Positions 3,842 to 45,720 of a DNA stretch of 47,328 nucleotides are shown here, in pieces; the stretch's first letter is position 1, and every line of letters starts with the position of its first letter. Position numbers and translations under genes: made by a program. Source of the stretch: Oscillospiraceae bacterium (GTDB lineage Bacteria > Bacillota > Clostridia > Oscillospirales > Oscillospiraceae); assembly GCA_017461445.1 (NCBI GenBank), contig JAFTXW010000017.1, forward strand, positions 1-47,328, written 5' to 3'. The notes under the pieces are model-generated. The model saw only the letters and a list, made by a program, of their open reading frames with translations. It made no database searches and had not been told where the DNA came from.

Positions 3842-4246
3842 ATGGAGGCTACGCAAAAGCAATTCCGAAAGCGCAACGCCATTCTCACCTGCCTGCAGGG
3901 GACGCACAGCCATCCCTCGGCGGAGATGGTTCACCAGATGCTGCAGGAAGAGCACCCGGACATCTCCCTGGCAACGGTCTACCGGAATCTGGCCCGGTTC
4001 AAGAATCAGGGACTGATCCAGAGTTTGGGGACCGTGAACGGGATCGAGCGGTTCGATGCCAACACCGCCCCCCATGTCCATTTTGTCTGCGGCAGCTGCG
4101 ACGCTGTTCTGGACCTGCCCCAGATGGAAGTACCCCAGGTGCTGTGCGAAAACGCCGCACAGTGCTCCGGCTGCAAGGTTGACGCCTGCCAGCTGATGTT
4201 CACCGGAACCTGCCGGGCCTGCCTGGCAAAACACGAAACAGCCTGA
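3842..4246 (+). CDS. perR: PerR-like peroxide-sensing Fur family repressor
   Basis: 134 residues from ATG 3842, spaced correctly from AGGAGG; a GTG at 3836 overlaps that site. The winged-helix part carries HPSAEMV and the recognition helix SLATVYRNL. His24, Asp72, His78, His80 and Asp91 line up, with a constant offset of 13, with the regulatory-metal ligands His37, Asp85, His91, His93 and Asp104 of B. subtilis PerR. Two CxxC pairs (83/86 and 124/127) give the structural zinc site. PerR proteins hold peroxide-defence genes off until iron-catalysed histidine oxidation releases DNA. The rubrerythrin gene 55 nt downstream is the obvious target. An extra set of cysteines (102, 108, 111, 116) is unusual. 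Confidence 0.88.
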   Translation: MEATQKQFRKRNAILTCLQGTHSHPSAEMVHQMLQEEHPDISLATVYRNLARFKNQGLIQSLGTVNGIERFDANTAPHVHFVCGSCDAVLDLPQMEVPQVLCENAAQCSGCKVDACQLMFTGTCRACLAKHETA

Positions 4247-4301: not shown

Positions 4302-4892
4302 ATGAAGAAGTTTGTATGCCCCGTTTGCGGTTACGTCCACGAAGCTGAGGAAATGCCCGCCGATTTCAAGTGCCCCCTGTGCAAGGTGCCCGGCTCCAAG
4401 TTCAAGGTGCTGGAAGAGGGCAAGCTGGCCGCTGTCCATGAGTACGGCGTTTACGCAAAGACCGTCAAGAACAACCCCGACATCTCCGAGGATGACAAGA
4501 AGTACATCTTCGAGCAGCTGATGGCCAACTTCCAGGGCGAGTGCTCCGAGGTCGGCATGTACCTGTGCATGGCCCGCATCGCCCACCGGGAGGGCTACCC
4601 CGAGATCGGCCTGTACTGGGAGAAGGCAGCCTACGAGGAGGCTGAGCACGCCGCCAAGTTCGCCGAGCTGCTGGGTGAGGATCTGGAGCCCAACATGAAG
4701 GCCTCCACCAAGGCCAACCTGGCATGGCGCGTTGACTGCGAGTTCGGCGCAACCCAGGGCAAGTTCGACCTGGCCGTCTGCGCCAAGAAGAACGGCCTGG
4801 ATGCCATCCACGACACTGTGCATGAAATGGCCCGGGACGAGGCCCGACACGGCAAGGCACTGAAGGGCCTGCTGGACAGATATTTTAAGTAA
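4302..4892 (+). CDS. rbr: Reverse rubrerythrin (N-terminal rubredoxin, C-terminal diiron domain)
   Basis: 196 residues from ATG 4302, behind GGAGG at 4289-4293. A rubredoxin-type iron site (Cys6, Cys9, Cys24, Cys27) comes first, then a four-helix diiron domain with GECSE (Glu80), EEAEH, Glu147 and DEARH (Glu180, His183). This order is that of reverse rubrerythrins, which reduce hydrogen peroxide with electrons from NAD(P)H via rubredoxin systems in anaerobes. It follows perR on the same strand. The last 200 nt (4694-4893) are repeated, diverged, at 13341-13540 across an integrated element. The C-terminal 65 residues, including Glu147, Glu180 and His183, may therefore be element-derived. The protein is intact. 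Confidence 0.93.
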
Positions 4893-4910
4893 GAAAATAA
4901 CCCCTGTTTG

Positions 4911-4944
4911 GGAGGTCTGAGCAACTGCTCAGGCCTCCTTTTTT
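4911..4944 (+). terminator. Rho-independent terminator of rbr
   Basis: GGAGG-CTGAGCA pairs with TGCTCAG-CCTCC around a short loop, followed by six T. Confidence 0.92.
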
Positions 4945-4963
4945 CTGCGCTTTTGGATGAGGT

Positions 4964-5026
4964 GTGGCATTATTTGTGGCATCGCCCCACCCGGAAGCCT
5001 GTTTTGGATGCCACAGTGTGGCATCG
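4964..5026. repeat. Left-end GTGGCAT cluster (integrase arm-type sites or att)
   Basis: GTGGCAT at 4964 and 4976, ATGCCAC at 5008 and GTGGCAT at 5018. The last two form the perfect palindrome ATGCCACAGTGTGGCAT. The cluster at 13194-13256 has the same order, orientation and 44-nt first-to-third spacing, and shares the exact 19-mer ATGCCACAGTGTGGCATCG. Confidence 0.8.
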
Positions 5027-5102
5027 GTAATCGATGTATCGTGATTATACATCATCGGTTGTTCACGATACAAGACCTTTGAACTATATTGAACAACCAC
5101 CC

Positions 5103-5193
5103 ATCAACTTTTATCGACAGCAGAGCATCCACCTATCATCACCCCATCATCTGCGCTCATCATTCATCATCCGGGCATCATCTGTCCATCATT
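5103..5193. repeat. Left-end phased ATCATC sites
   Basis: ATCATC/ATCATT begins at 5135, 5146, 5159, 5166, 5177 and 5188, mostly 11 nt apart, with weaker members from 5103. The spacing of about one helical turn suggests cooperative protein binding. A matching array in reverse complement is at 11898-11941. Together with 4945-5102 this is a stretch without a convincing gene. Confidence 0.65.
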
Positions 5194-5236
5194 CCGCAAA
5201 ATTTCTTTGAAAAAATATTGAAATAATTTTTTGAAG

Positions 5237-5268
5237 GAAACTCAGTTTCTTTCATCCACTGTTATACT
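5237..5268 (+). promoter_or_regulatory. Probable promoter of the left element operon
   Basis: TATACT at 5263-5268 serves as a -10 box. The upstream -35 region is covered by the perfect palindrome GAAACTCAGTTTC (5237-5249), a likely operator. The -35 itself is poor, so an activator or repressor at the palindrome is plausible. Confidence 0.5.
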
Positions 5269-5346
5269 AGCCTCAGAAACAGGGAGGGAACACCTCCCAA
5301 ACAAAAATAAGAGCTACGACCCGCAACAAAGAAAGGAAAATGAATT

Positions 5347-5850
5347 ATGAACGCACAGATGAATGAGAATGTTAAGGCTGCTACCTCCCCCGCCCCCTAT
5401 TTCTGGTATGACCACATCCAGGAGAAGATTTGCGGCACCGAGCTGAACTTTAAGAAGTCCGGCGACCCCGGTTCCGCACAGGATAAGGCTCTGATGTGTG
5501 CCAAGCGTGAGCATCCCAATTATGGCTATGATCCTATCAAGCCCCAGAAGGAAAAGAACAGCTACAAGGGAATGAATCTTCCTCTGATGCACGACTATCT
5601 GGATTGTTTCGGTACTAAGGAAATGATGGACAAATTCCAGCAGATGAAGAATGATGGTACTAGATTCCCTGCGATTAAGAGCTGGTTCCTTGACCTGTTC
5701 CCCAAGTTCAATGTGGAAAAGGCAAAGAAGGAAATCCGTGAGTATCGTCTGGGCAAGGTTAAGGCAAAGTACAAGGTTGTCAAGGCTGACCCCAAGAACC
5801 GCAAGCCCTCTTCCAACATTGCCGAACTGCCCATGGCCTCTGGTGAGTAA
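5347..5850 (+). CDS. Unknown protein, first gene of the element operon
   Basis: 167 residues from ATG 5347 with AAAGGAAA upstream. I do not recognise it. It is lysine-rich and hydrophilic, with no signal peptide, no membrane segment and no metal motif. Recurrent features are KKSGDPGSAQDKALMCAK, GYDPIKPQK and a basic C-terminal stretch (VEKAKKEIREYRLGKVKAK). The codon use and start are convincing, and a second gene follows 17 nt later. Being first behind the left-end promoter of the element, it may be an early element function, but no role can be assigned. Confidence 0.8.
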   Translation: MNAQMNENVKAATSPAPYFWYDHIQEKICGTELNFKKSGDPGSAQDKALMCAKREHPNYGYDPIKPQKEKNSYKGMNLPLMHDYLDCFGTKEMMDKFQQMKNDGTRFPAIKSWFLDLFPKFNVEKAKKEIREYRLGKVKAKYKVVKADPKNRKPSSNIAELPMASGE

Positions 5851-5867
5851 GAAAGGGGGCAAGGGAA

Positions 5868-6227
5868 ATGCCCAACACAGTAGAGAACCAGAGAAGAGTT
5901 CTGGTTCACCGGGATATGCCCGAAAAGAAGGAAGGTAACTTCCTGCTTATCAAGAAAGAAAACTTGTATGCAGCTTACCGGGATTTGAACGCAACGGCAT
6001 TATGCCTGTATCTGTACCTTGCCGGAAACAAAGACGGGTTTGACCTTGCGTTTTCTCCAAAAGCAATCCATAGCGAAATGGGGTTGCCGGAATCTACCTG
6101 CCGTGACCAGTTTAAGGTGCTGGTAAACAAAGGGTATCTTGTCCGCAAAAACGAGAACAGCAACATCTATGATTTCTATGAGATACCAAGAGGAAAGAAG
6201 AAAGCGGAAACGGCTTGCGTTTTTTGA
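5868..6227 (+). CDS. Small winged-helix protein, replication-initiator-like N-terminus
   Basis: 119 residues from ATG 5868, preceded by AAGGGGGCAAGGG. After a charged lead, NFLLIKKENLY resembles the start of Firmicute plasmid initiator N-terminal domains. A helix-turn-helix/wing follows: LNATALCLYLYLAG (about 45-58), then SPKAIHSEMGLPESTCRDQF and VNKGYLVRKNENSNIYDFYEI. Only the wHTH part of such initiators is present; there is no C-terminal DnaD-like or replication domain, so it may be a regulator. It lies in a short operon with the gene at 5347. The stop is followed by about 270 nt of non-coding, hairpin-rich DNA, which would suit an origin beside an initiator; this is inference. Confidence 0.75.
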   Translation: MPNTVENQRRVLVHRDMPEKKEGNFLLIKKENLYAAYRDLNATALCLYLYLAGNKDGFDLAFSPKAIHSEMGLPESTCRDQFKVLVNKGYLVRKNENSNIYDFYEIPRGKKKAETACVF

Positions 6228-6495
6228 AAACGGGCGGCGTTCCCTTCTGCGGCTCCCGCTTTGGAGCCACCGCAAGGGTTTATAGAAATATATAATAAGA
6301 GAAAGTGGGGATAGATATAAAATATATAAAGGGGCTGATTAACCACATTTGGTTAATTGCATTGCCCCATCCGCCATGTAATAGTGAGCAAAGGATTAGC
6401 CGTTATTTCCATAGACCGCATACGCCTCCTTCGTCGGCTATGCTCATGGAAAAACGGCTAATCTTTTGTATTATAAAGACGAAGGAGAGGTTTAT
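6228..6495. other. Non-coding hairpin-rich stretch of the element (possible origin, oriT or leader)
   Basis: No gene is seen. ATTAACC 6340-6346 pairs with GGTTAAT 6353-6359. GATTAGCCGTT (6394-6404) pairs with AACGGCTAATC (6453-6463), extended inward by TTCCAT (6407-6412) and ATGGAA (6446-6451), followed by TTTT. The second hairpin could be a terminator/attenuator for the next genes or a single-strand origin. Confidence 0.55.
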
Positions 6496-6678
6496 ATGAC
6501 CCTAGCTAATTATTACAACCAGATTCCAGCGTACCATCCTGCAATGCACCTCCAAGGCTATACACCACAGGAGGTATATAATTCCTTCCGCAAGACGGTA
6601 TATGAGAATTACATAGACCGCAAAGAGGAACAGGAGATGCCCATGTTCCAGATCACAAGTGTGGTAAAGCTCAAATGA
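6496..6678 (+). CDS. Small unknown protein of the element
   Basis: 60 residues from ATG 6496, behind AAGGAGAGG at 6482-6490; a longer frame starting at 6466 runs through the hairpin and is less likely. The product has LANYYNQIPAYHPAMHLQGY, then QEVYNSFRKTVYENYID and a charged end. It is aromatic-rich, with no membrane segment. I do not recognise a family. It overlaps the next gene by four bases (ATGA), so the two are probably translated together. Confidence 0.65.
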   Translation: MTLANYYNQIPAYHPAMHLQGYTPQEVYNSFRKTVYENYIDRKEEQEMPMFQITSVVKLK

Positions 6679-6818
6679 CACCAAGGCAGCGCAGGGATAA
6701 GGATAAGCGGAAAAAGAAAAAGTCCACCTTACAGGCGGAAATTTTCAGTATACTACATAAGAGCTTGAAAGCGGCTCTGGATATGGCAATGGATGATATA
6801 TTCAAGGAATGGAAATAA
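6675..6818 (+). CDS. Very small basic protein overlapping the previous gene
   Basis: 47 residues from ATG 6675, which overlaps the TGA of the preceding gene. The N-terminal half is highly basic (RQRRDKDKRKKKK), and the C-terminal half is an amphipathic helix (LQAEIFSILHKSLKAALDMA, then DDIFKEW). Translational coupling and a strong terminator six bases after the stop support a real gene. A nucleic-acid-binding accessory is possible from charge alone. Confidence 0.6.
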   Translation: MTPRQRRDKDKRKKKKSTLQAEIFSILHKSLKAALDMAMDDIFKEWK

Positions 6819-6823
6819 AAAAG

Positions 6824-6890
6824 GCGGAAGCCCGGTTCACGGACGGTTCTCCCAGCAGAGAGATCGTTGGAACGGGCTTCCGCATTTTTT
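6824..6890 (+). terminator. Long-loop terminator of the left element operon
   Basis: GCGGAAGCCCG (6824-6834) pairs with CGGGCTTCCGC (6873-6883), with a 38-nt loop, followed by six T at 6885-6890. Confidence 0.85.
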
Positions 6891-7141
6891 CGTTGTGGGC
6901 CGTTTGACGGCTTCCTTTTCTTCTGGACGTAGACAGCCCTGTAAACCGTCCCCCGGAATAAAAGGGTCATTCCGTGGGAGAGCGGGCCACACTATACCGC
7001 CTTTTGGATGCAGAGCTTTTTTCTTCCCGAAATGGGTGCCGGGGGTGTTCAATTAAACACTTGCTTTCGACTACACTTTTGGACGGGCAAAAACTGCTCC
7101 CAAGAGGCCGGAAATCCGGGGAAATCTGTCCACGAAACAGG
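6891..7141. other. Gap without gene
   Basis: No frame with a start and ribosome binding site is convincing on either strand. Only a short stem (GTGTT/AACAC, about 7047-7062) and a GGCCGGAAATCCGG stem are visible. It may be decayed sequence. Confidence 0.5.
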
Positions 7142-7369
7142 TCAGCCCCTTTCGCTGACATCGGCCTCCCGCACATACTCAATAATGTCTGCGGGCTGGC
7201 AGTCCAGAAGTCGGCACAGGGTTTCAAGGTTCTCCCAAGACACGCCCTGTTGGTTGCGGAACTTCTGCAAGGTGGACTGGCTCAATAGACCCTCTGTTCT
7301 TATCTTGTTTGTGTTGTAGCCTTTTTCCTTCAAGGCAGACAGCACATCGATCTTATACTTCAACGGCAC
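7142..7369 (-). CDS. Small Cro/C1-type helix-turn-helix repressor
   Basis: 75 residues from ATG 7369. A single HTH domain fills it: YKIDVLSALKEKGYNTNKIR, LLSQSTLQKFRNQQGVSWEN, LETLCRLLDCQPADIIEYV. This is the compact YozG-like class of Xre repressors. It is transcribed divergently from the gene at 7636, across a region with three GCACGA/TCGTGC palindromes, one of which covers its own promoter. The likely role is to switch the element between a quiet state and expression of the rightward operon with the serine recombinase. No inducer domain is present. Confidence 0.88.
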   Translation of the reverse strand: MPLKYKIDVLSALKEKGYNTNKIRTEGLLSQSTLQKFRNQQGVSWENLETLCRLLDCQPADIIEYVREADVSERG

Positions 7370-7399
7370 GGATACTGCACCCCCTTTTCTACCATCCTT

Positions 7400-7506
7400 A
7401 TTCTATCACAGGAATTGCACGAAATCAAGTGCAAAATATAACCAACAAATAGCACGATTATTCGTGCATTTTGCCAATAGACTTGCACGACTTTTCGTGC
7501 TATAAT
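7400..7506. promoter_or_regulatory. Divergent promoters with three phased operators
   Basis: Leftward promoter: TTGATT (7428-7423), 17-nt spacer, TAGAAT (7405-7400). Rightward: TAGACT-like -35 (7478-7483), 17-nt spacer, TATAAT (7501-7506). Operators: TTGCAC...GTGCAA at 7415-7434, and GCACGA-N4-TCGTGC at 7452-7467 and 7485-7500. Their centres are 35 and 33 bp apart, about three helical turns. The first overlaps the leftward promoter and the third overlaps the rightward one. Confidence 0.8.
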
Positions 7507-7635
7507 AAAGGAGCAATGAAGGACAGCCCAATTTCAACACCGCCTGTTGTAAGTCCTACATCAAACACAAAGGAGCGGAGGCAGCACGGAAAGACGGCAC
7601 ACCAATTAAACCAACACCAAAAGGAGAAATGAAAA
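7507..7635 (+). other. Leader between the TATAAT box and the gene at 7636
   Basis: About 125 nt of untranslated leader. It ends in AAAGGAG at 7620-7626, the ribosome binding site. No hairpin stands out. Confidence 0.5.
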
Positions 7636-7914
7636 ATGTCTAAAATGGAACTACTTGCCAAGATCGAACTTCTCAACAAATACGAGGCCATGATGGAAGA
7701 AATCAAGGCCGAGGCTGACCGGGTGCGCAACAGCATCAAGGCCGAGATGGAGGCCCGGGAGGTTGAAGAACTAATCGCCGGTCAGTACATCATCCGCTGG
7801 ACTTCCGTCCTCTCCAACCGCTTCGACAGCACCGCTTTCAAGAAGGTAATGCCGGAGCTGTACAAGGCCTACACGAAGCAGACCGCCAGCCGCCGCTTCA
7901 CTATCAGCGTGTAA
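7636..7914 (+). CDS. Phage-like small protein, function unknown
   Basis: 92 residues from ATG 7636. An N-terminal coiled coil (ELLAKIELLNKYEAMMEEIK, AEADRVRNSIKAEME) is followed by a conserved-looking block, YIIRWTSVLSNRFDSTAFKK and LYKAYTKQTASRRFTIS. I recall similar C-terminal blocks in small proteins near phage recombination genes, but cannot name a family with confidence. It is the first gene of the rightward operon controlled by the operators, followed 12 nt later by a DUF6809-like gene and then a serine recombinase. Confidence 0.72.
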   Translation: MSKMELLAKIELLNKYEAMMEEIKAEADRVRNSIKAEMEAREVEELIAGQYIIRWTSVLSNRFDSTAFKKVMPELYKAYTKQTASRRFTISV

Positions 7915-7926
7915 GGAGGGAAAAGG

Positions 7927-8226
7927 ATGTATATGCTGCGGGAACTGTGGAGGGGAGAAATCTCCCCCACAGACCGCCGGGTGCGACAGGGCAGCGAATA
8001 CCAGCAGCGGGCCGCAGAAGTCCGTAAGCAGATGGCGGATTTGGCTGCACTGCTGTCCCCGGAGGTCAAGGAACGGATGGAGGATATCAACGACCAAAAG
8101 CACAGTATGGCAATGCTGGCAGAGGAAGATGTGTTCATCTACGGCTTCCGGCTGGGAGCCAGAATGATGCTGGATGTAATTGGGGACTACGAAGGACAGT
8201 TCTGCTCCCCAACAGAGGCGGGGTAA
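7927..8226 (+). CDS. DUF6809-like small protein
   Basis: 99 residues from ATG 7927 with AAGGAGG at 7912-7918. The pattern MLRELWRGEISPTDR, then SEYQQRAAEV, and a C-terminal FIYGFRLGARMMLDVIGD is that of the DUF6809 family, common in Clostridial mobile elements and phages. No biochemical function is known to me. It lies between the coiled-coil gene and the recombinase; spacing (28 nt to the next ATG) indicates one operon. Confidence 0.75.
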   Translation: MYMLRELWRGEISPTDRRVRQGSEYQQRAAEVRKQMADLAALLSPEVKERMEDINDQKHSMAMLAEEDVFIYGFRLGARMMLDVIGDYEGQFCSPTEAG

Positions 8227-8254
8227 CTCCCCGCCGCCAACAGGAGGAAAGACT

Positions 8255-8842
8255 ATGATTTACGGATACGCCCGCTGCTCCACCAACGAAACGAAGCAGG
8301 ATATTAACCGCCAAGTGCGGGAGCTGAAAGCCGCCGGAGCGGAACACATCTTTCTGGAATACGAGCATGGCGACAGCAGAGTAAAGCCCCAACAGACCCG
8401 GATGTTTGCCCAGGCACAAGCCGGGGATACCATCATCACATTGGAAGTCCCCCGTCTGGCCCGCAGCACCCAGCAGCTCTGTGAGATCATAGATCGTGTG
8501 CGGGAGGGCTGCTTGTGTCTGGTTATCGTGGGCAGCATTACCCTTGACTGCCGGGAGGGCCGGGCAGACCCCATGACCGAGGCTTTCTTGCAGATTGCGG
8601 GCGTATTCAGTCAGTTGGAGCTATCCATGATCCGGGAGCGTGTACGGTCTGGCATGGCGAACGCAAAGGCCAAGGGCAAGCAAATCGGGAGGCCGCAGAC
8701 AACCAAAGACAGCATCCCGGCAATCTTCCTCCGTCACTATCCGGCCTATAAATCCGGGCATCTCAATATCACAGAACTGTCCAGAGTGTGCGATTTGAGC
8801 CGCACGACCATCTACAAATACATTTCTCTTTTGGAATCATAA
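8255..8842 (+). CDS. Serine recombinase (small resolvase/invertase type)
   Basis: 195 residues from ATG 8255, behind AGGAGGAAA; an open frame reaches back to 8180 but lacks a ribosome binding site. The catalytic domain opens with MIYGYARCST (Ser9 nucleophile, Arg7), then PRLARS (Arg67, Arg70), SQLELSMIRERVRSGM and GRP, ending in a C-terminal HTH (NITELSRVCDLSRTTIYKYI). This is the resolvase/invertase class of about 190 residues, not a large integrase. It may resolve element multimers or invert a segment; no clear res or inversion repeats were found. It is expressed from the operator-controlled operon and followed by a perfect terminator. Confidence 0.92.
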   Translation: MIYGYARCSTNETKQDINRQVRELKAAGAEHIFLEYEHGDSRVKPQQTRMFAQAQAGDTIITLEVPRLARSTQQLCEIIDRVREGCLCLVIVGSITLDCREGRADPMTEAFLQIAGVFSQLELSMIRERVRSGMANAKAKGKQIGRPQTTKDSIPAIFLRHYPAYKSGHLNITELSRVCDLSRTTIYKYISLLES

Positions 8843-8844
8843 GG

Positions 8845-8874
8845 AAACAGGGTGCCAGAATTGGCACCCTGTTT
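8845..8874. terminator. Bidirectional terminator between recombinase and lipoprotein genes
   Basis: AAACAGGGTGCCA pairs perfectly with TGGCACCCTGTTT around GAAT. The T-rich flanks serve both convergent genes; the lipoprotein stop is at 8876-8878. Confidence 0.92.
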
Positions 8875-8875
8875 A

Positions 8876-9997
8876 TTACTGGATGGGATATACTGGATTA
8901 CCGCTGTCGTCATACTGAACGAAGATATATGTATACAATTCTGTGGCATGACTTTGTGTTTCTTCCACCAAATAATGTCCATCCATTATCTTCCTAAATT
9001 GATAAGTGCTGCAGTTTGTATAATCGGGCTCCTTCGGAACAAATGTATTGCTAATGTAGAGCTGACCATTTTCGATTTTATAGGCTTTATGCCAGCTGCT
9101 TCCATCATGGAATTCATCATTCATATAATTTCCAATAGTATATCTCACGCCATCATCCGCATAATCATAAAGCCACCATTCATCAAATACGGTATTTTCC
9201 ACCTTAATGCAAGTCCAATTACTGACAATAATTTGGCTCAACTCTTCTGTTGTTACAATCGGGAATTCTTCTTTGTGTTCTTCGATATAGTCAAATCTTT
9301 CACCGTGTTTCTCTTTGCCAGCGAACGCAAGCAAAGCCTCTTGCGGTGTTTTTATCCTTAATGCTTCTGCCTGTTCTGCCTGTAATTGGTCTGCCTCCTC
9401 ACAGGCCTCCATAAAATTGGCACTCTTTACAGTAAAGTTGTATTGGGAACTGCCAATATTGATTATACATCGTATATCATTACCTTCACGGAGCTGGAAA
9501 AAGAAGGCATCGCCATCATTGACATTATTGTATCCAAGCGAAATACCGCCATTGGGTGCTACACCAAATAATTTAAATTCCTGAATTGTGTCACCGATTT
9601 TAGTTTTTAGTGTCATTTTCTCAATATCGCTATTTGTGTAAGTAGCCCAAGAATTTCCATATTCCATAAGGCCAAAAGTAACAACAAAATGTTGTCCGCC
9701 CGGATTGGGAGAAATAGTAATGTAAACATCCAGCTCAGAACTTGTAGTTGCAGTGTTGCTAAAATCGCCCTTAACAGAGGTGTAGAGTGAAACAGCACCA
9801 CCCATTACTACATCGCCAAATTCATCAACACTGGGCATCGCAGTCCAATACTGCACAACATCACTTGAAAGTGTTTCGCTTTGGGTAACTGCATTTGTGT
9901 CACTCTTATCTGCCGTGGAAGTGTTTTCTGAATTTCCGCAAGCACAAAGAGATAAGATAATACATAGAGCCAACATAAGGGATACCACTTTTCTCAT
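8876..9997 (-). CDS. Secreted lipoprotein of the element, function unknown
   Basis: 373 residues from ATG 9997. The signal peptide MRKVVSLMLALCIILSLCAC ends in a lipobox (LCAC, lipidated Cys20), followed by a Ser/Thr-rich linker (about 22-45). The body is acidic, with beta-rich segments. The centre has a helical AEQAEALRIKTPQEALLAF segment, and then a domain with NWTCIKVENTVFDEWWLYDY and a repeat-like TYQFRKIMDGHYLVEETQ. No enzyme motif is seen. It lies alone on the minus strand, divergent from an Xre gene with overlapping promoters. It is large cargo for so small an element; a surface role, such as exclusion or adhesion, is speculation. Confidence 0.85.
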   Translation of the reverse strand: MRKVVSLMLALCIILSLCACGNSENTSTADKSDTNAVTQSETLSSDVVQYWTAMPSVDEFGDVVMGGAVSLYTSVKGDFSNTATTSSELDVYITISPNPGGQHFVVTFGLMEYGNSWATYTNSDIEKMTLKTKIGDTIQEFKLFGVAPNGGISLGYNNVNDGDAFFFQLREGNDIRCIINIGSSQYNFTVKSANFMEACEEADQLQAEQAEALRIKTPQEALLAFAGKEKHGERFDYIEEHKEEFPIVTTEELSQIIVSNWTCIKVENTVFDEWWLYDYADDGVRYTIGNYMNDEFHDGSSWHKAYKIENGQLYISNTFVPKEPDYTNCSTYQFRKIMDGHYLVEETQSHATELYTYIFVQYDDSGNPVYPIQ

Positions 9998-10040
9998 TTA
10001 TGTTCCTTCTTTCGTGTTTTATAAACCATAAGCACACACA

Positions 10041-10112
10041 ATAGCCTATAAGGTTTATGTAATTCTATCAAAATCGCCTATATAATTCAAGTATATTTTC
10101 ACTACATAGGCG
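10041..10112. promoter_or_regulatory. Divergent overlapping promoters, lipoprotein / Xre gene
   Basis: Leftward: TTGAAT (10090-10085), 17-nt spacer, TAGAAT (10067-10062). Rightward: TATAAT at 10081-10086 with a weak -35. CGCCTAT (10075-10081) and ATAGGCG (10106-10112) form an inverted pair around the rightward start region, with a further GCCTATA at 10044-10050. These are likely sites for the Xre protein. Confidence 0.7.
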
Positions 10113-10121
10113 GTGATTTCG

Positions 10122-10454
10122 ATGGATTACTACAAGATTGGGCAGAAGATACGCAAAATCCGCAAGGCCCACGGACTGTCGCAGGAGGAACTTGCTGAAA
10201 AAGTCAACATCTCCACCACCCACATGAGCCACATCGAAACAGGCAACACCAAATTGAGCCTACCTGTGTTCGTAGACATTGCCGCCGCTCTGGAAGTCCG
10301 GGCCGACGATCTTCTGGACAACCCCACCGCCGCAACTACCAGCAGCTCCCTTGATGAAATCGCCGCCGTGCTGGATCGATGCAGCGCACAGGAAGCCAAG
10401 GTCATTGCCGATGTAGTAAAGGCCACCAAATTATCAATGGATAAGCATTTCTAA
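10122..10454 (+). CDS. Xre family transcriptional regulator
   Basis: 110 residues from ATG 10122; GTG 10113 is possible but overlaps the GGCGGTG that probably binds the ribosome. The HTH spans about residues 6-60: IGQKIRKIRKAHGLSQEELA, VNISTTHMSHIETGNTKLSL, PVFVDIAAALEVRADDLL. A short C-terminal helical tail (DEIAAVLDRCSAQEAKVIAD) probably dimerises. It resembles the regulator at 14463-14810 outside the element (same HMSHIE turn and similar tail). It is divergent from the lipoprotein gene and upstream of the WYL gene, so it may control both. Confidence 0.9.
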   Translation: MDYYKIGQKIRKIRKAHGLSQEELAEKVNISTTHMSHIETGNTKLSLPVFVDIAAALEVRADDLLDNPTAATTSSSLDEIAAVLDRCSAQEAKVIADVVKATKLSMDKHF

Positions 10455-10482
10455 AAGGGCGGAAAACCGCCCTTTTCTCTTT
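10453..10482 (+). terminator. Terminator of the Xre gene
   Basis: AAAAGGGCGG-AAAA-CCGCCCTTTT followed by CTCTTTT. Confidence 0.88.
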
Positions 10483-10529
10483 TCTGTTGGTATGATACAA
10501 TAGAGAAAACCGCCGCAGGAGGGGATATT

Positions 10530-11831
10530 GTGGAAGAGTTTGAATATGAGGACGATTGGGACGAAGAAGAGGAAGAGGACGAAGAGGAAGGTTGGGGCTT
10601 ATCCAAGGAAGAAATTGCAAAACGACTGCAACAGGTAAACCAAGAGCAAGATAAGCGGGAAGCCAAAAAAGAGGAACAGAAGGAAAAGAAGAGAGGCAGA
10701 AAAAAGGGCACAAAGAACAAAACGAGGAAAGAAAAGAAGAAGAAAGATCCCAATGCTCCCCCAAAGAGCAAGCGATCCAAGCGGCAAGGGTTAAAGCTGC
10801 TGTTGATCCGGGATTATTTATACAATGAAGCATCGGAGGACAAGCCTAAAAGCACCGAGGCCATTATGGATTATTTGAAGGAGAACTATGACATAGAGGC
10901 CACCGACAGAACAATCCATACCGATGTAAAGCGGCTAAGAGAGGATGCAAATGTTCCCGTCATATACAATCGCCATAGACGGGGTTACTATATTGACGAA
11001 AGGCCCTATTCCCCCGCTGAACTGCGGCTTATCATTGACTGCATCCGTAATGCCGAGTTTTTGACAAAAGAGGATGCAGCCACACTTACAGAGAAGATCA
11101 TGGGGCTGGCAAGCTCCCCGGATAAAGAATTGCTTGCCCACCAGTTGGAAGAAGAATACAGAAAGAGCCAGACAGAAGCAAGTGTCATTGAAAATGTTGG
11201 TCTGCTTATGAAAGCTATTGATGCGGGGCGAAAGGTTAGCTTTAATCGATACCGCTATGTGGCAGAGCGTACGAAGCATACTTCTTTGGAAGCAGAAGTC
11301 ATTATTGCTAGTCCCATTAAGTTAATACGAAAATCTAACCAGTACATACTTGAATATGCCATAGATTTTAAGAATGGTAGTTGTATCTTCGATAAAATCC
11401 AAGTGGCGATGATGGATAATGTAGAAATTTTGAATGTTGCCAATAGTCATACAAAAGCAGAGAAACGGGCACGGCAACAATCTATGGAAGATGTATTGGA
11501 TGCGATCAACGGAAAAAAGAGAGCAATTACGCTTCTAATCTACAACAGAGCATCAGAAAAAATATTAAGCAATCTTCCAGAAGATGCCATACTTATCAAG
11601 GTCAATAATGTGCTTTCAAAAACCACTATATTGGAGCGTGCAAGTCCGCAGTTTTTCTCAATGCTGGATAGCTTCGGTAATTATGCGAAAATACTTGAAC
11701 CCCAAGATGTTGTTGAGAAGTTTTTGCAATGGCAGAAACAGAAAGTGTATGACTATGCCCGCTTGTACAAAGTGAATTTAGAGGATATTCCAGTGAGCGA
11801 AGAGGAACCCGGCGGTTTAAGTATTAAGTGA
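10530..11831 (+). CDS. WYL-domain regulator with charged N-terminal extension
   Basis: 433 residues from GTG 10530, well placed behind AGGAGGGG. Residues 1-20 are almost all acidic (DDWDEEEEEDEEE), and about 45-85 are lysine-rich (KKRGRKKGTKNKTRKEKKKK). A DeoR-type HTH follows (about 88-150: LIRDYLYNEASEDKPKSTE, then IEATDRTIHTDVKRLREDA and IYNRHRRGYYI). Next comes a WYL-like sensor domain (about 205-305), with AIDAGRKVSFNRYRY and SPIKLIRKSNQYILEYA, and a C-terminal WCX-like region. WYL regulators often respond to nucleotides or nucleic acids and control phage, CRISPR or defence genes. The polyampholyte head is unusual. The gene stands alone between two terminators. Confidence 0.87.
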   Translation: MEEFEYEDDWDEEEEEDEEEGWGLSKEEIAKRLQQVNQEQDKREAKKEEQKEKKRGRKKGTKNKTRKEKKKKDPNAPPKSKRSKRQGLKLLLIRDYLYNEASEDKPKSTEAIMDYLKENYDIEATDRTIHTDVKRLREDANVPVIYNRHRRGYYIDERPYSPAELRLIIDCIRNAEFLTKEDAATLTEKIMGLASSPDKELLAHQLEEEYRKSQTEASVIENVGLLMKAIDAGRKVSFNRYRYVAERTKHTSLEAEVIIASPIKLIRKSNQYILEYAIDFKNGSCIFDKIQVAMMDNVEILNVANSHTKAEKRARQQSMEDVLDAINGKKRAITLLIYNRASEKILSNLPEDAILIKVNNVLSKTTILERASPQFFSMLDSFGNYAKILEPQDVVEKFLQWQKQKVYDYARLYKVNLEDIPVSEEEPGGLSIK

Positions 11832-11858
11832 ATCTAATGTTACTAATAGCAAGATGAA

Positions 11859-11886
11859 GGGGAGAAGTGCAAACTTCTCCCCTTTT
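11859..11886 (+). terminator. Terminator of the WYL gene
   Basis: GGGGAGAAGT-GCAA-ACTTCTCCCC followed by TTTT. Confidence 0.9.
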
Positions 11887-11897
11887 GATATTGAGTT

Positions 11898-11941
11898 GAT
11901 GCAAGATGATGGCGAGATGATGCCGGATGATATGAGATGAT
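11898..11941. repeat. Right-side phased GATGAT sites
   Basis: GATGAT at 11905, 11916, 11926 and 11936 (10-11 nt apart), preceded by GATGCA at 11898. They are the reverse complement of the ATCATC array at 5135-5193. The shared context GATGATGCCGGATGAT here matches ATCATCCGGGCATCATC there, apart from one base. They lie just past the 3' end of the integrase gene. Confidence 0.65.
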
Positions 11942-11962
11942 AGTGAGAGGATACCGGGATGC

Positions 11963-13174
11963 TCACAGACGATTGAGGTTTCTTTGCAGGATTTGGATAC
12001 CGTACTTCGATACCGCCAAATAATACTGCTGGGTGACCTGTATCTTGCCGTGTCCCATCTGGTTGCAGAGTAGGTGCGTGGGCGTGTTCAGCTCTGCCAT
12101 CATTGTTCCGTAGGTGTGCCGCAGATAATGGTACTTAAACTGGATGCCCAGCTTTTTGTTTATCTCACGGGATGGATACTTAAAGGAGTTCAGCGTTTGC
12201 AGCGTTCCATTAGGCAGACAGTTGACCATATCCGTGGAATAGATATTGGAGCCGTCCAAATCCTGCAAGGTGCGCCGTTTCTGTTCCCGCAAGTCCGCAT
12301 ACAGTTCTGCATCCTTCTCCCGCTTTTGGGCCAGTGCTATGAAGTAGTTTTTCAGCGTATCACACATATAGATGGTGCGCTTTGCGTTCTTTGTTTTCAG
12401 CGGCACCAGCTTGATAAGGCTTTCCTGATACTGCATCTGCCTGTCAATCAGGATGGTGCCATTCTCCAAATCTACATTAGACCATTTCAGACCGAAACAC
12501 TCATTGATGCGCAGGCCGCAGTAACGGCCCAGCATATAAGCTGTTTGTGCGTTGGTGCCGTCAAAGTATTCATCCAGAAGTGCAAGTTCCTCCTGCGTGA
12601 AATAGACGATATCCGTATCATCATCCGTTTTCAGCTTCGGCATCTTGATTTTGGTATCCTTGTTCACGCACAGTTTGTTGTAGATATCCACATCAAGGTA
12701 ATTACGGGAGTAGGCTTGCCCGAAGATCAAATAGAACATCTTTAGGAAGCTCTCTGTATACCGATAGGAATACTTTTTCTTATAGTAGAGGTCTGTTAGA
12801 TAGTCCTGCACTTCCGCCACAGAAATATCGTCCACGAACCGCTTGCCGAACTTCTTCCGCAGATGGATTTCCCATAGACTGTCCTGCTTGCGGATGGTCT
12901 GGTAAGCCTTGCCGGAGCGGCCCTTTTCGCAGTATTCCGTGAACACCTCCGCCACGGTTTTCCTGTCTTTTGGCTTCGGCCTGCTTTCGTCCTGTTCCTG
13001 TTGGAGCGCAAGCTGCCGTGCTTTTGTGGCCTCCTTCCTTGTTTTGAAAGGGTTGCCGAGATCGTCCTGCTTTCTACGGATATCTTTCCGCTGACCATTG
13101 CGCATAATCGTGAAGCGATAGCCCCAATTGCCATTCTCTAACTGAAATACACTGGAATCATTCTGTTTTGCCAT
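11963..13174 (-). CDS. int: Tyrosine integrase (Tn916/phage-like)
   Basis: 403 residues from ATG 13174 with GGAGGGC upstream. An N-terminal arm-binding domain (about 10-60: NGNWGYRFTIMRNGQRKDIR) and a SAM-like core-binding domain (about 72-165) precede the catalytic domain. Catalytic residues are Arg222 (CGLRINE), His349-x-x-Arg352 (YHYLRHTYG), His375 (MGHGKIQVTQQYY) and Tyr384 or Tyr385. These enzymes integrate and excise elements at att sites. The gene is the last of the element, reading inward from the right junction, with GTGGCAT arm-like sites just upstream of its start. No separate excisionase was recognised; one of the small proteins may serve. Confidence 0.95.
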   Translation of the reverse strand: MAKQNDSSVFQLENGNWGYRFTIMRNGQRKDIRRKQDDLGNPFKTRKEATKARQLALQQEQDESRPKPKDRKTVAEVFTEYCEKGRSGKAYQTIRKQDSLWEIHLRKKFGKRFVDDISVAEVQDYLTDLYYKKKYSYRYTESFLKMFYLIFGQAYSRNYLDVDIYNKLCVNKDTKIKMPKLKTDDDTDIVYFTQEELALLDEYFDGTNAQTAYMLGRYCGLRINECFGLKWSNVDLENGTILIDRQMQYQESLIKLVPLKTKNAKRTIYMCDTLKNYFIALAQKREKDAELYADLREQKRRTLQDLDGSNIYSTDMVNCLPNGTLQTLNSFKYPSREINKKLGIQFKYHYLRHTYGTMMAELNTPTHLLCNQMGHGKIQVTQQYYLAVSKYGIQILQRNLNRL

Positions 13175-13193
13175 AGTGAAGCCCTCCTAAAGT

Positions 13194-13256
13194 GTGGCAT
13201 TTTTGTGGCATCGACTACCACAGAAGGGCTTCCAGCAATGCCACAGTGTGGCATCG
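13194..13256. repeat. Right-end GTGGCAT cluster (integrase arm-type sites or att)
   Basis: GTGGCAT at 13194 and 13205, ATGCCAC at 13238 and GTGGCAT at 13248, with the palindrome ATGCCACAGTGTGGCAT. It is a direct copy in geometry of 4964-5026. It also overlaps the int promoter region, so binding could couple recombination and expression. Confidence 0.8.
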
Positions 13257-13316
13257 ATTAGGGGCAAGGATTGCCTGCGCAGAATGGGCGCTGTTGCGCC
13301 CTCCCGGCGTGGTATA

Positions 13317-13349
13317 GTGTCCGGGACGGACACTTCCACGCATGAAGGC
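13317..13349. other. Probable right attachment junction (attR) with adjacent palindrome
   Basis: The perfect inverted repeat GTGTCCG-GGA-CGGACAC (13317-13333) lies eight bases before CATGAAGGC (13341-13349), where similarity to rbr position 4694 begins. To the left there is no similarity to rbr, so the crossover should lie at or just right of 13341. Confidence 0.6.
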
Positions 13350-13539
13350 TTCCACCAAGGAGAACCTGGCATGGCGCGTCGACTGCGAGTTCGGTGCCAC
13401 CCAGGGCAAGACCGACCTGGCCATCTGCGCCAAGAAGAACGGCCTGGACGCCATCCACGACACCGTCCACGAAATGGCCCGCGACGAGGCCCGCCACGGC
13501 GTTGCTCTGAAGGGCATGCTGGAGCGGTACTTTAAGTAA
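13342..13539 (+). pseudogene. Displaced 3' fragment of a rubrerythrin gene
   Basis: The frame encodes 65 residues that match residues 132-196 of the rubrerythrin at 4302-4892, with six differences. The nucleotide match stops at the Met codon on the left and after the stop codon on the right. The rubredoxin domain, Glu80 and the EEAEH helix are missing, and no ribosome binding site precedes the ATG, so a working enzyme is not expected. The pieces are diverged, so this is not a recent duplication. The simplest reading is that it is the original host 3' end, pushed aside by element integration. A terminator follows at 13617. Confidence 0.87.
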
Positions 13540-13590
13540 GCGGCGAGCCTTCGGCTGGTCTGTTGACCAACACCCCTGGGTGGTCAGCCC

Positions 13591-13613
13591 GGTTCGTTTC
13601 AGCGCAATCAACA
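13591..13613. repeat. 23-nt direct repeat, copy 1 (before lipoprotein gene)
   Basis: GGTTCGTT-CAGCGCAAT-AACA, matched at 14144-14166 with two differences. Each copy sits directly before a terminator hairpin. Confidence 0.75.
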
Positions 13614-13616
13614 CAG

Positions 13617-13657
13617 AACAGGTGGGGCTTGACCCCACCTGTTTTTTGTGGTATAAT
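13617..13657 (+). promoter_or_regulatory. Terminator with embedded promoter
   Basis: AACAGGTGGGG-CTTGA-CCCCACCTGTT followed by a T-run ends transcription from the left. TTGACC (13629-13634) in its loop and stem, a 17-nt spacer and TATAAT (13652-13657) make a promoter for the next gene. Confidence 0.75.
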
Positions 13658-13685
13658 GAAAATATCAAAAAAGGAGGCGGTCATT

Positions 13686-14143: not shown

Positions 14144-14166
14144 GGTTCGTTACAGCGCAATAAACA
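14144..14166. repeat. 23-nt direct repeat, copy 2 (after lipoprotein gene)
   Basis: Second copy of the repeat at 13591-13613, with 21 of 23 bases shared. Confidence 0.75.
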
Positions 14167-15528: not shown

Positions 15529-15771
15529 ATGCAAATCGATACCAATACCATCGTATCCGTTACGGAAGCCAATCAGAATTTCTCCCGGGTGACGCGGATC
15601 GCGGAAAAAAACGGGCAGGCGGTGATTTTCAAAAACAACCGTCCCAAATACATGGTTATTGACCTGGAAAACTCTCCCATACTGGATCTGACCGACGATG
15701 AAAAAATTGACATCGTTGCTGCCAGAATTTTAAAGCGTTTCAAGCCCGCCTTTGAGGAGCTGGCCAAATGA
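15529..15771 (+). CDS. phd: Phd/YefM-type antitoxin
   Basis: 80 residues from ATG 15529 with GAAGGAAGG upstream. The N-terminal dimer/DNA-binding fold shows IVSVTEANQNFSRVTRIAEK and VIFKNNRPKYMVIDLE, the usual Phd pattern. The C-terminal part (DEKIDIVAARILKRFKPAFE) should wrap the toxin. Its stop overlaps the toxin start by four bases (ATGA). The palindrome over the promoter fits autorepression. Confidence 0.92.
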   Translation: MQIDTNTIVSVTEANQNFSRVTRIAEKNGQAVIFKNNRPKYMVIDLENSPILDLTDDEKIDIVAARILKRFKPAFEELAK

Positions 15772-16145
15772 TCAAATTCTCCAAGGATAAAGTTCTGCTG
15801 CTGCACCAGCTGATCGCTCAGGAGACCGGCGGCAGCATCGGTGTCCGGGACGAGGGGCTGCTGGAATCCGCTTTGGAAGCGGCTTTCTCCGGTTTCGGCG
15901 GCGTGGAGTTCTATCCCACCAAGGAGGAAAAGGGTGCCCGGTTGGGTTATAACCTGATTTCTAACCATGCCTTCGTGGATGGGAATAAGCGCATTGGAAT
16001 GTATGTGATGCTGACCTTCCTGGAAGTCAATGGAATCCACATGGACTGCACCAATGAGGATGTGGTGACTGTGGGGCTGGGTGTGGCTTCGGGAAACATG
16101 GATTATGAAGCCCTGCTGTCCTGGGTGAGGGAGCATCGGCTTTGA
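15768..16145 (+). CDS. doc: Doc-type Fic toxin (death-on-curing family)
   Basis: 125 residues from ATG 15768, overlapping the antitoxin stop. The Fic motif is HAFVDGNKRIG (His67, Asp71, Asn73, Lys74, Arg75). The Lys in place of the Gly of AMP-transferring Fic proteins is typical of Doc, which phosphorylates and inactivates EF-Tu. Upstream, the conserved SIGVRDEGLLESALEAA helix is present. Full length for Doc. The motif has Gly-Asn and Ile-Gly where P1 Doc has Ala-Asn and Thr-Ala, a common chromosomal variant. It ends 25 nt before a bidirectional terminator. Confidence 0.92.
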   Translation: MIKFSKDKVLLLHQLIAQETGGSIGVRDEGLLESALEAAFSGFGGVEFYPTKEEKGARLGYNLISNHAFVDGNKRIGMYVMLTFLEVNGIHMDCTNEDVVTVGLGVASGNMDYEALLSWVREHRL

Positions 16146-45637: not shown

Positions 45638-45720
45638 GCGGGCATGGTGGAATTGGTAGACTCGGTGGATTTAGGTTCCACTGCGAGAGCGTGCAGGTTC
45701 GAGTCCTGTTGCCCGCACCA
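45638..45720 (+). tRNA. tRNA-Leu (anticodon UAG)
   Basis: 83 nt with encoded CCA. Acceptor GCGGGCA/TGCCCGC, D-loop AATTGGTAGAC, anticodon stem GTGGA/TCCAC with loop TTTAGGT, long variable arm (GCGAGAGCGT region) and T-arm GCAGGTTCGAGTCCTGT. All stems pair, so it should be functional and read CUN/CUA codons. Confidence 0.96.

Follow-up and report, generated by a model that had tools for sequence, protein, structure and literature searches.

Tyrosine integrases of the Tn916 and CTnDOT types work with arm repeats, tolerate heterology at the joint and use many or short sites. As excerpts of the respective papers describe, integrases of prophages and genomic islands target dusA (PMC4482086), and islands of the SGI1 type insert at the 3' end of trmE (PMC8409611; PMC7449626). 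Rubrerythrin is named, in an excerpt of PMC5025042, as one component of a spore-protein band, and no description of its gene as an attachment or integration site was found in the literature searched, most subscription papers lying outside that coverage. The window considered here is the whole stretch of 47,328 nt of contig JAFTXW010000017.1 from an Oscillospiraceae bacterium (genome G000; G056, G083 and similar designations denote the other genomes compared, and L numbers denote loci). It contains an integrative element of 8.4 kb, at about 4893-13340, behind the rubrerythrin gene rbr. This element is very probably one of a family in which a tyrosine integrase carries out recombination within the 3' coding end of rbr, where a tail borne on the circular form of the element yields a hybrid gene.

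The intact rbr (4302-4892, plus strand) encodes 196 amino acids and is matched by the Pfam families Rubrerythrin and RUBY_RBDX, with the rubredoxin-like domain at the N terminus, which we take to be the arrangement called reverse rubrerythrin. Its last part, 4694-4893, is repeated directly at the other junction of the element, 13341-13540, with 88% identity over 200 nt (24 differing sites; E ~5e-68 in a small database), and the frame of this fragment (13342-13539) comprises 65 codons with six residue differences from intact rbr. The similarity between the copies stops abruptly at 13341, corresponding to rbr nt 393 (CATGAAGGC), and the gene of the tyrosine integrase (11963-13174, minus strand; Pfam Phage_integrase, E 1.8e-15) begins 166 nt from this joint. 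The shared 200 nt with six residue differences, the abrupt end and the adjoining integrase had all been pointed out in an earlier sequence-only reading of this DNA, and each was confirmed. Of the six matches to Phage_integrase that G000 yielded, only the present one lies near rbr, the five others serving as a control. No further rbr copy was detected by DNA search of G000, the only third match being one of 37 nt on contig C23. A chance repeat was rejected on the length, identity and E value given above, and a tRNA gene as the attachment site was rejected as well, the sole tRNA found being located at 45638.

In G056, a congeneric genome of another species, an uninterrupted rbr was found whose end aligns with 13341-13540 and runs on, in register, into the right flank of the window and its terminator, as the sequence-only reading had suggested might be found in a related genome. 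This flank (13541-13660, plus strand; terminator at 13618) follows the G056 gene in the same order, the common sequence being GCGGC.AGCC...CCCGGTTCGTT...GAACAGGTGGGG...CCCCACCTG, and no further rbr tail occurs in the 3.5 kb behind the G056 gene. The survey set for such comparisons consisted of 117 rbr loci of the genus with a complete 3' end, from 112 genomes (five loci are cut 5' by a contig end; the window's own locus was excluded). The strict pattern of the window's terminator was present within 200 nt of the rbr stop at one of the 117 loci, that of G056, and weaker matches to the right flank were detected behind rbr in G091, G121, G022, G125 and G061. The right flank of the G083 element likewise has weaker matches behind rbr in G071, G017, G056, G091, G102, G121 and G125. 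Since the G056 gene and the weaker matches place this flank behind rbr, the end of the fragment and the flank are native, and the G056 locus is, as judged from the alignment, an empty site at the species level. Local duplication of rbr was rejected, because in G056 the native flank directly follows the gene. In genera g15 and g82, no empty sites were obtainable, flank conservation being too low.

Comparison with G056 also indicated where the exchange took place. The left copy has four mismatches over nt 393-488 and 19 after this point, and the right copy 10 and 8, respectively (Fisher p 0.019); before nt ~475 it is the right copy that deviates from G056 and after nt 501 the left, the other copy agreeing in each case, and the two copies are identical over nt 476-500. 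Against the genus panel, the left copy is closer before nt 488 and the right copy after it for 74 of the 117 genes, the reverse holds in both halves for four, and 39 are mixed; this amounts to a trend and not to 117 tests, because the genes are related. In G083, whose integrase is 90% identical to that of the window, the element joins rbr at nt 487, inside the identical stretch. The mosaic, the genus trend and the G083 joint thus place the exchange near nt 476-500. About 100 nt (33 codons), not 200, would then have been replaced, and 13341-13435 (plus strand; nt 393 to ~487) would be an rbr segment borne by the element, probably not the host's own. The intact gene would consist of a host-derived part, nt 1 to ~487 (4302-4788, plus strand; boundary uncertain within 4777-4801), completed beyond the mosaic switch by an element-borne tail of ~33 codons (4789-4892, plus strand), and the displaced native 3' end would be the segment 13436-13539 (plus strand), which continues into the native flank. 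The sequence-only reading's general proposal, that an element integrated at the 3' coding end of rbr, brought its own 3' end and made the gene a hybrid, is thereby supported, and its positions for Glu147, Glu180 and His183 are correct; with the boundary near nt 476-500, Glu147 is host-encoded and only Glu180 and His183 (nt 538-549) come from the element. The latter two belong to the second Glu-x-x-His motif of rubrerythrin, whose residues are presumably metal ligands, judging from the rubrerythrin structure. The hybrid would be expected to remain a functional enzyme.

Two other positions of the crossover have to be weighed against this placement. The earlier proposal that the replacement starts at CATGAAGGC (nt 393), with the whole 200-nt right copy as the displaced host end, agrees with the fact that the similarity of the copies ends exactly there, beside a hairpin (13307-13341; DNA fold -13.9 kcal/mol, z -5.0) whose last paired base, 13341, is the first base of the shared stretch. 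This start is improbable, given the opposite behavior of the two copies toward G056 before nt ~475 and after nt 501 and the joint at nt 487 in G083, which has the same arm end. A parallel is provided by G468 and G495, which belong to the same genus as each other and whose integrase arms are almost the same: the rbr fragments begin at nt 305 and 227, respectively, agree almost completely beside the arm to about nt 413 and then diverge, and the same arm end joins rbr at ~nt 413 in G466 and G208. From this pattern it follows that elements can carry rbr sequence lying upstream of the exchange point. Some elements have long rbr pieces, of up to 365 nt (G495). A crossover at or after the stop codon, leaving the intact gene entirely native and the fragment a dead passenger, would suit the observation that 22 of 23 further rbr tails found in the genus (see below) reach the stop but begin at very different positions, as a decaying passenger would. 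It is nevertheless very improbable, since the last ~100 nt of the fragment and the flank match the uninterrupted G056 gene, including a Met codon at nt 568 that is rare in the genus (3/117 genes), and the intact gene of the window does not. For an exchange inside the coding end, the point itself seems to differ between elements, at ~nt 324 (G414/G498), 413, 487 and later positions, as far as the joints compared indicate.

Both ends of the window element carry a repeat array, at 4962-5026 on the left (GTGTGGCATT..TTTGTGGCATCG ... ATGCCACAGTGTGGCATCG; plus strand) and, matching it in a comparison of the ends, at 13192-13256 on the right (plus strand); these arrays are probable arm sites of the integrase. 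The end repeats of the G083 element use other words (GTGGATA) than those of G000, yet agree between its own two ends. In an end-matching test on 18 elements, L204 and L215 having been excluded beforehand, the element's own right end was the best match of its left end in 10 (permutation p 1e-4). The hairpin at the arm end closes at the joint in G000 and G083 (z -5.6 in the latter) and is weak in G466 (z -1.4). In the order of events that we infer, the core of the circle would be adjoined by an rbr 3' tail, the integrase would act on the repeat arrays at both ends, and circle and chromosome would be exchanged within the stretch identical in both, rbr nt ~476-500. At the left junction, host rbr would thus be joined to the element's tail, giving an intact hybrid gene, and the native tail would be pushed to the right end with the native terminator still behind it. 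The gene would be part host and part element because the element supplies its own copy of the displaced piece.

The association of this integrase with rbr recurs in other genomes. Within the genus, integrase matches at E 1e-20 were obtained in 5 of 136 genomes, and all five lie beside an rbr tail, although one is only 37% identical (G063) and another is a partial gene (G088). In a sample of the family, 13 of 400 genomes gave matches at E 1e-60, and, the window's own locus set aside, 12 of the 13 loci had an rbr tail; the remaining one carries the C-terminal half of an integrase gene that is split in G208, its two halves (L161 and L162) lying ~37 kb apart. A looser search (E 1e-15; 17/400 genomes) added two partial relatives (57-58% identity) with an rbr tail, a C-terminal piece of a G342 gene without one, two distant integrases (~30%) right behind intact rbr (L230:714-2607 and L231:588-2625), and two integrases (28-31%) without a credible rbr within 1.5 kb on each side. 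Because of the two ~30% integrases behind intact rbr, this gene end may also serve a second lineage of integrases. Among named genomes, which include Lachnospiraceae, Oscillospiraceae and Mogibacterium, 29 loci were found, five of them cut or broken, and an rbr fragment lies beside the integrase, 79-213 nt from its start, at 22 of the 24 testable loci (two of these, L200 and L222, seem to be the contigs of G083 and G026). Targeting of rbr by this integrase family is therefore not a one-off.

The same pairing bears on the proposal that homologous recombination between the rbr piece of an element and host rbr accounts for the insertions, with the integrase only excising or circularizing the element. 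The long rbr pieces of some elements and the differing break positions would be understandable on this basis, which we nonetheless regard as unlikely: integrase and rbr tail are paired at nearly all testable named loci with a short arm between them, the window's ends carry matching repeat arrays, and tails of ~60-80 nt are poor homology. Several observations weigh against integrase-mediated exchange inside the rbr 3' end as set out above. No circular form was seen, and homologous exchange in the shared tail is possible. In 8 of the 18 elements of the end-matching test, the element's own end was not the best match (ranks 2-13), and among the nine elements of genomes with G designations, own ends were best only in G000 and G083. 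The result of the Fisher test is modest, and the genes of the panel are related to one another. When the mosaic test was applied to the two copies of G083, its right copy was slightly closer for G091, G089, G102 and G121 (5 vs 9, 7 vs 11, 14 vs 16 and 11 vs 13 mismatches, respectively), and G056 was equal (8 vs 8). Fragment starts in the relatives range from nt 227 to ~526, with no shared word at the joint, and a single fixed core predicts otherwise. Two loci have no fragment adjoining the integrase: L210, whose rbr tail is across the integrase from the expected side, at the end of the contig, and L215, with an intact rbr 3.2 kb away. Finally, neither a same-species genome nor a same-species empty site was found, G056 being another species.

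Between its ends, the window element encodes, from left to right, a 167-aa protein (5347-5850, plus strand) for which Pfam, PHROG and NCBIfam gave no match at the cut-offs used; a 119-aa protein (5868-6227, plus strand) weakly like phage replication initiators and DnaD (phrog_270, E 4e-7; DnaD_N, E 0.005, under the Pfam cut-off); a Cro/C1-type regulator (7142-7369, minus strand; HTH_26, E 2e-12); a serine recombinase of the resolvase/invertase type (8255-8842, plus strand; Resolvase, E 1.3e-27); a putative lipoprotein of 373 aa (8876-9997, minus strand), with weak N-terminal lipoprotein matches only, under the cut-off; an HTH_3 regulator (10122-10454, plus strand; E 5e-14); and a 433-aa protein (10530-11831, plus strand) with no Pfam match at 0.01. 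For comparison, 20 loci were chosen by their integrase, the integrase side of L215, which has no fragment, being set by hand, and the span from rbr stop to fragment was 3.1-12.6 kb. The open reading frame (ORF) cluster of the serine recombinase is present in 13 of these 20 elements and that of the 433-aa protein in 15; the latter cluster probably corresponds to the WYL/WCX-type regulators of the element set. A Pfam scan covered 107 of the 111 non-integrase ORFs of at least 140 aa from 19 elements, with Resolvase (12), WCX (12) and WYL (11) among the matches. In a PADLOC search of these 107 proteins for defense cargo, WYL regulators lead (14 and 11 members), together with Cas3c, type IV restriction and DpdF-like families (four each) and five single-member families.

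No relaxase or conjugation genes were detected in the window element, where TrbA and MobT matched the helix-turn-helix part only, under the cut-off, and no relaxase occurs among the best 25 of the 30 Pfam families of the 107 ORFs; assignment to integrative and conjugative or integrative and mobilizable elements (ICE/IME) is not supported on these grounds. No phage structural families were matched by ten G000 proteins (PHROGs, E 0.001), and relatives of the integrase were absent from 50,697 phage records at E 1e-20, so that a phage is not supported either; plasmid records gave no relatives at the same threshold. Outside the element, the reading frame directly upstream of rbr (3842-4246) is a candidate Fur/PerR-like regulator. 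A 23-nt repeat (91%; 13591-13613 and 14144-14166) flanks a small lipoprotein-like gene after the native rbr terminator, and two overlapping small genes (15529-15771 and 15768-16145) presumably resemble a toxin-antitoxin pair of the Phd/Fic-Doc type, judging from their motif.

Smaller cassette-like segments behind rbr were found in the survey set described above. Further rbr tails within 3.5 kb downstream were present at 17 of the 117 loci, with a total of 23 tails at E 0.01 (the 17 do not include G083 and G026, where the tails are farther off); 22 of the 23 reach the last model positions at the stop, one lies on the opposite strand, and the reversed control gave none. Most of these tails are located behind integrase-free cassettes or mini-elements, and the spacing between tails ranges from 37 bp to 2.2 kb. 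An ORF begins at most 7 nt after the preceding rbr stop in five segments, and several ORFs end against the next tail. The products include a zinc-ribbon-like protein, found in four genomes with 33-82% identity and Pfam matches under the cut-off, and antibiotic-biosynthesis-monooxygenase-like, DUF6054 and leader-peptide-like proteins. The G096 locus resembles that of G115 plus one 346-bp cassette exactly behind rbr, with 82% identity over the following 382 bp, and the sequence 60-76 nt behind the G115 tail recurs in nine other genomes, where it lies at most 100 nt behind rbr.

Some individual arrangements deserve description. In the last cassette of G096 (the second downstream of rbr at L024), the ORF reads in frame into the rbr tail, which supplies its C terminus. 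G043 (L084:12452-14492) has three tandem cassettes encoding related leader-peptide-like proteins, the first without a Pfam match, and each cassette ends in an rbr tail. Non-coding segments of ~115 nt, ~89% alike in parts, lie between rbr tails in G019, G043 and G078 (L114, L122, L113 and L089), and one segment of G026 resembles them by eye.

It is conceivable, and we propose it only tentatively, that the rbr 3' end is an integron-like platform behind which cassettes ending in an rbr tail have been inserted serially, in the orientation of rbr, and moved in trans by rbr-specific integrases. Movement of the cassettes by these integrases is a conjecture from their arrangement, and other sources may apply. 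Some cassettes may be remnants of larger elements, because the G088 locus is short and its integrase truncated; against this, none of 12 cassette proteins matched the 20 elements at E 1e-5. Recombination with imported rbr operons is also possible, because two cassettes hold genes ordinarily near rbr, a ferritin-like protein (15 loci) and a 50-aa cysteine-rich protein (57 loci). If the integron-like reading is true, an oxygen-defense operon would grow by cassette capture.

Taken together, small integrated elements of anaerobic gut bacteria form a family located in the end of the rubrerythrin gene, which can be counted, in Oscillospiraceae, Lachnospiraceae and other Clostridia, among the conserved protein genes at which elements dock in the chromosome. 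In the window element, the second Glu-x-x-His motif is encoded in the exchanged tail, so that integration would rewrite part of a catalytic helix of an oxygen-defense enzyme with the copy of an earlier host. Repeated rbr tails can be used as a simple marker for finding such elements and cassettes, and the family offers an example of integrases that keep to a single gene even as the joint shifts along it.

Like the dusA integrases, as far as the excerpts of that source describe them, the rbr-associated integrases are a single family linked across many bacteria to one conserved protein-coding gene; unlike the dusA case, the rbr elements exchange the 3' coding end, including metal-ligand codons, and their joint differs between relatives. 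The SGI1-type islands resemble the rbr elements, again by the excerpts cited, in inserting at a conserved gene's 3' end, but the rbr elements compared are of 3-13 kb, have no relaxase among the Pfam families listed, and target an oxidative-stress enzyme. The resemblance to the Tn916 and CTnDOT types lies in a tyrosine integrase with arm repeats and heterology tolerated at the joint, whereas the rbr family was found at rbr and not at many or short sites. As in integrons and gene-cassette arrays, rbr is followed in the genus, in its own orientation, by stacks of short segments, several of which have one ORF and each of which ends in a copy of the same site; in the rbr cassettes, unlike integrons, this site is a protein-coding tail, and the likeness is one of sequence arrangement.

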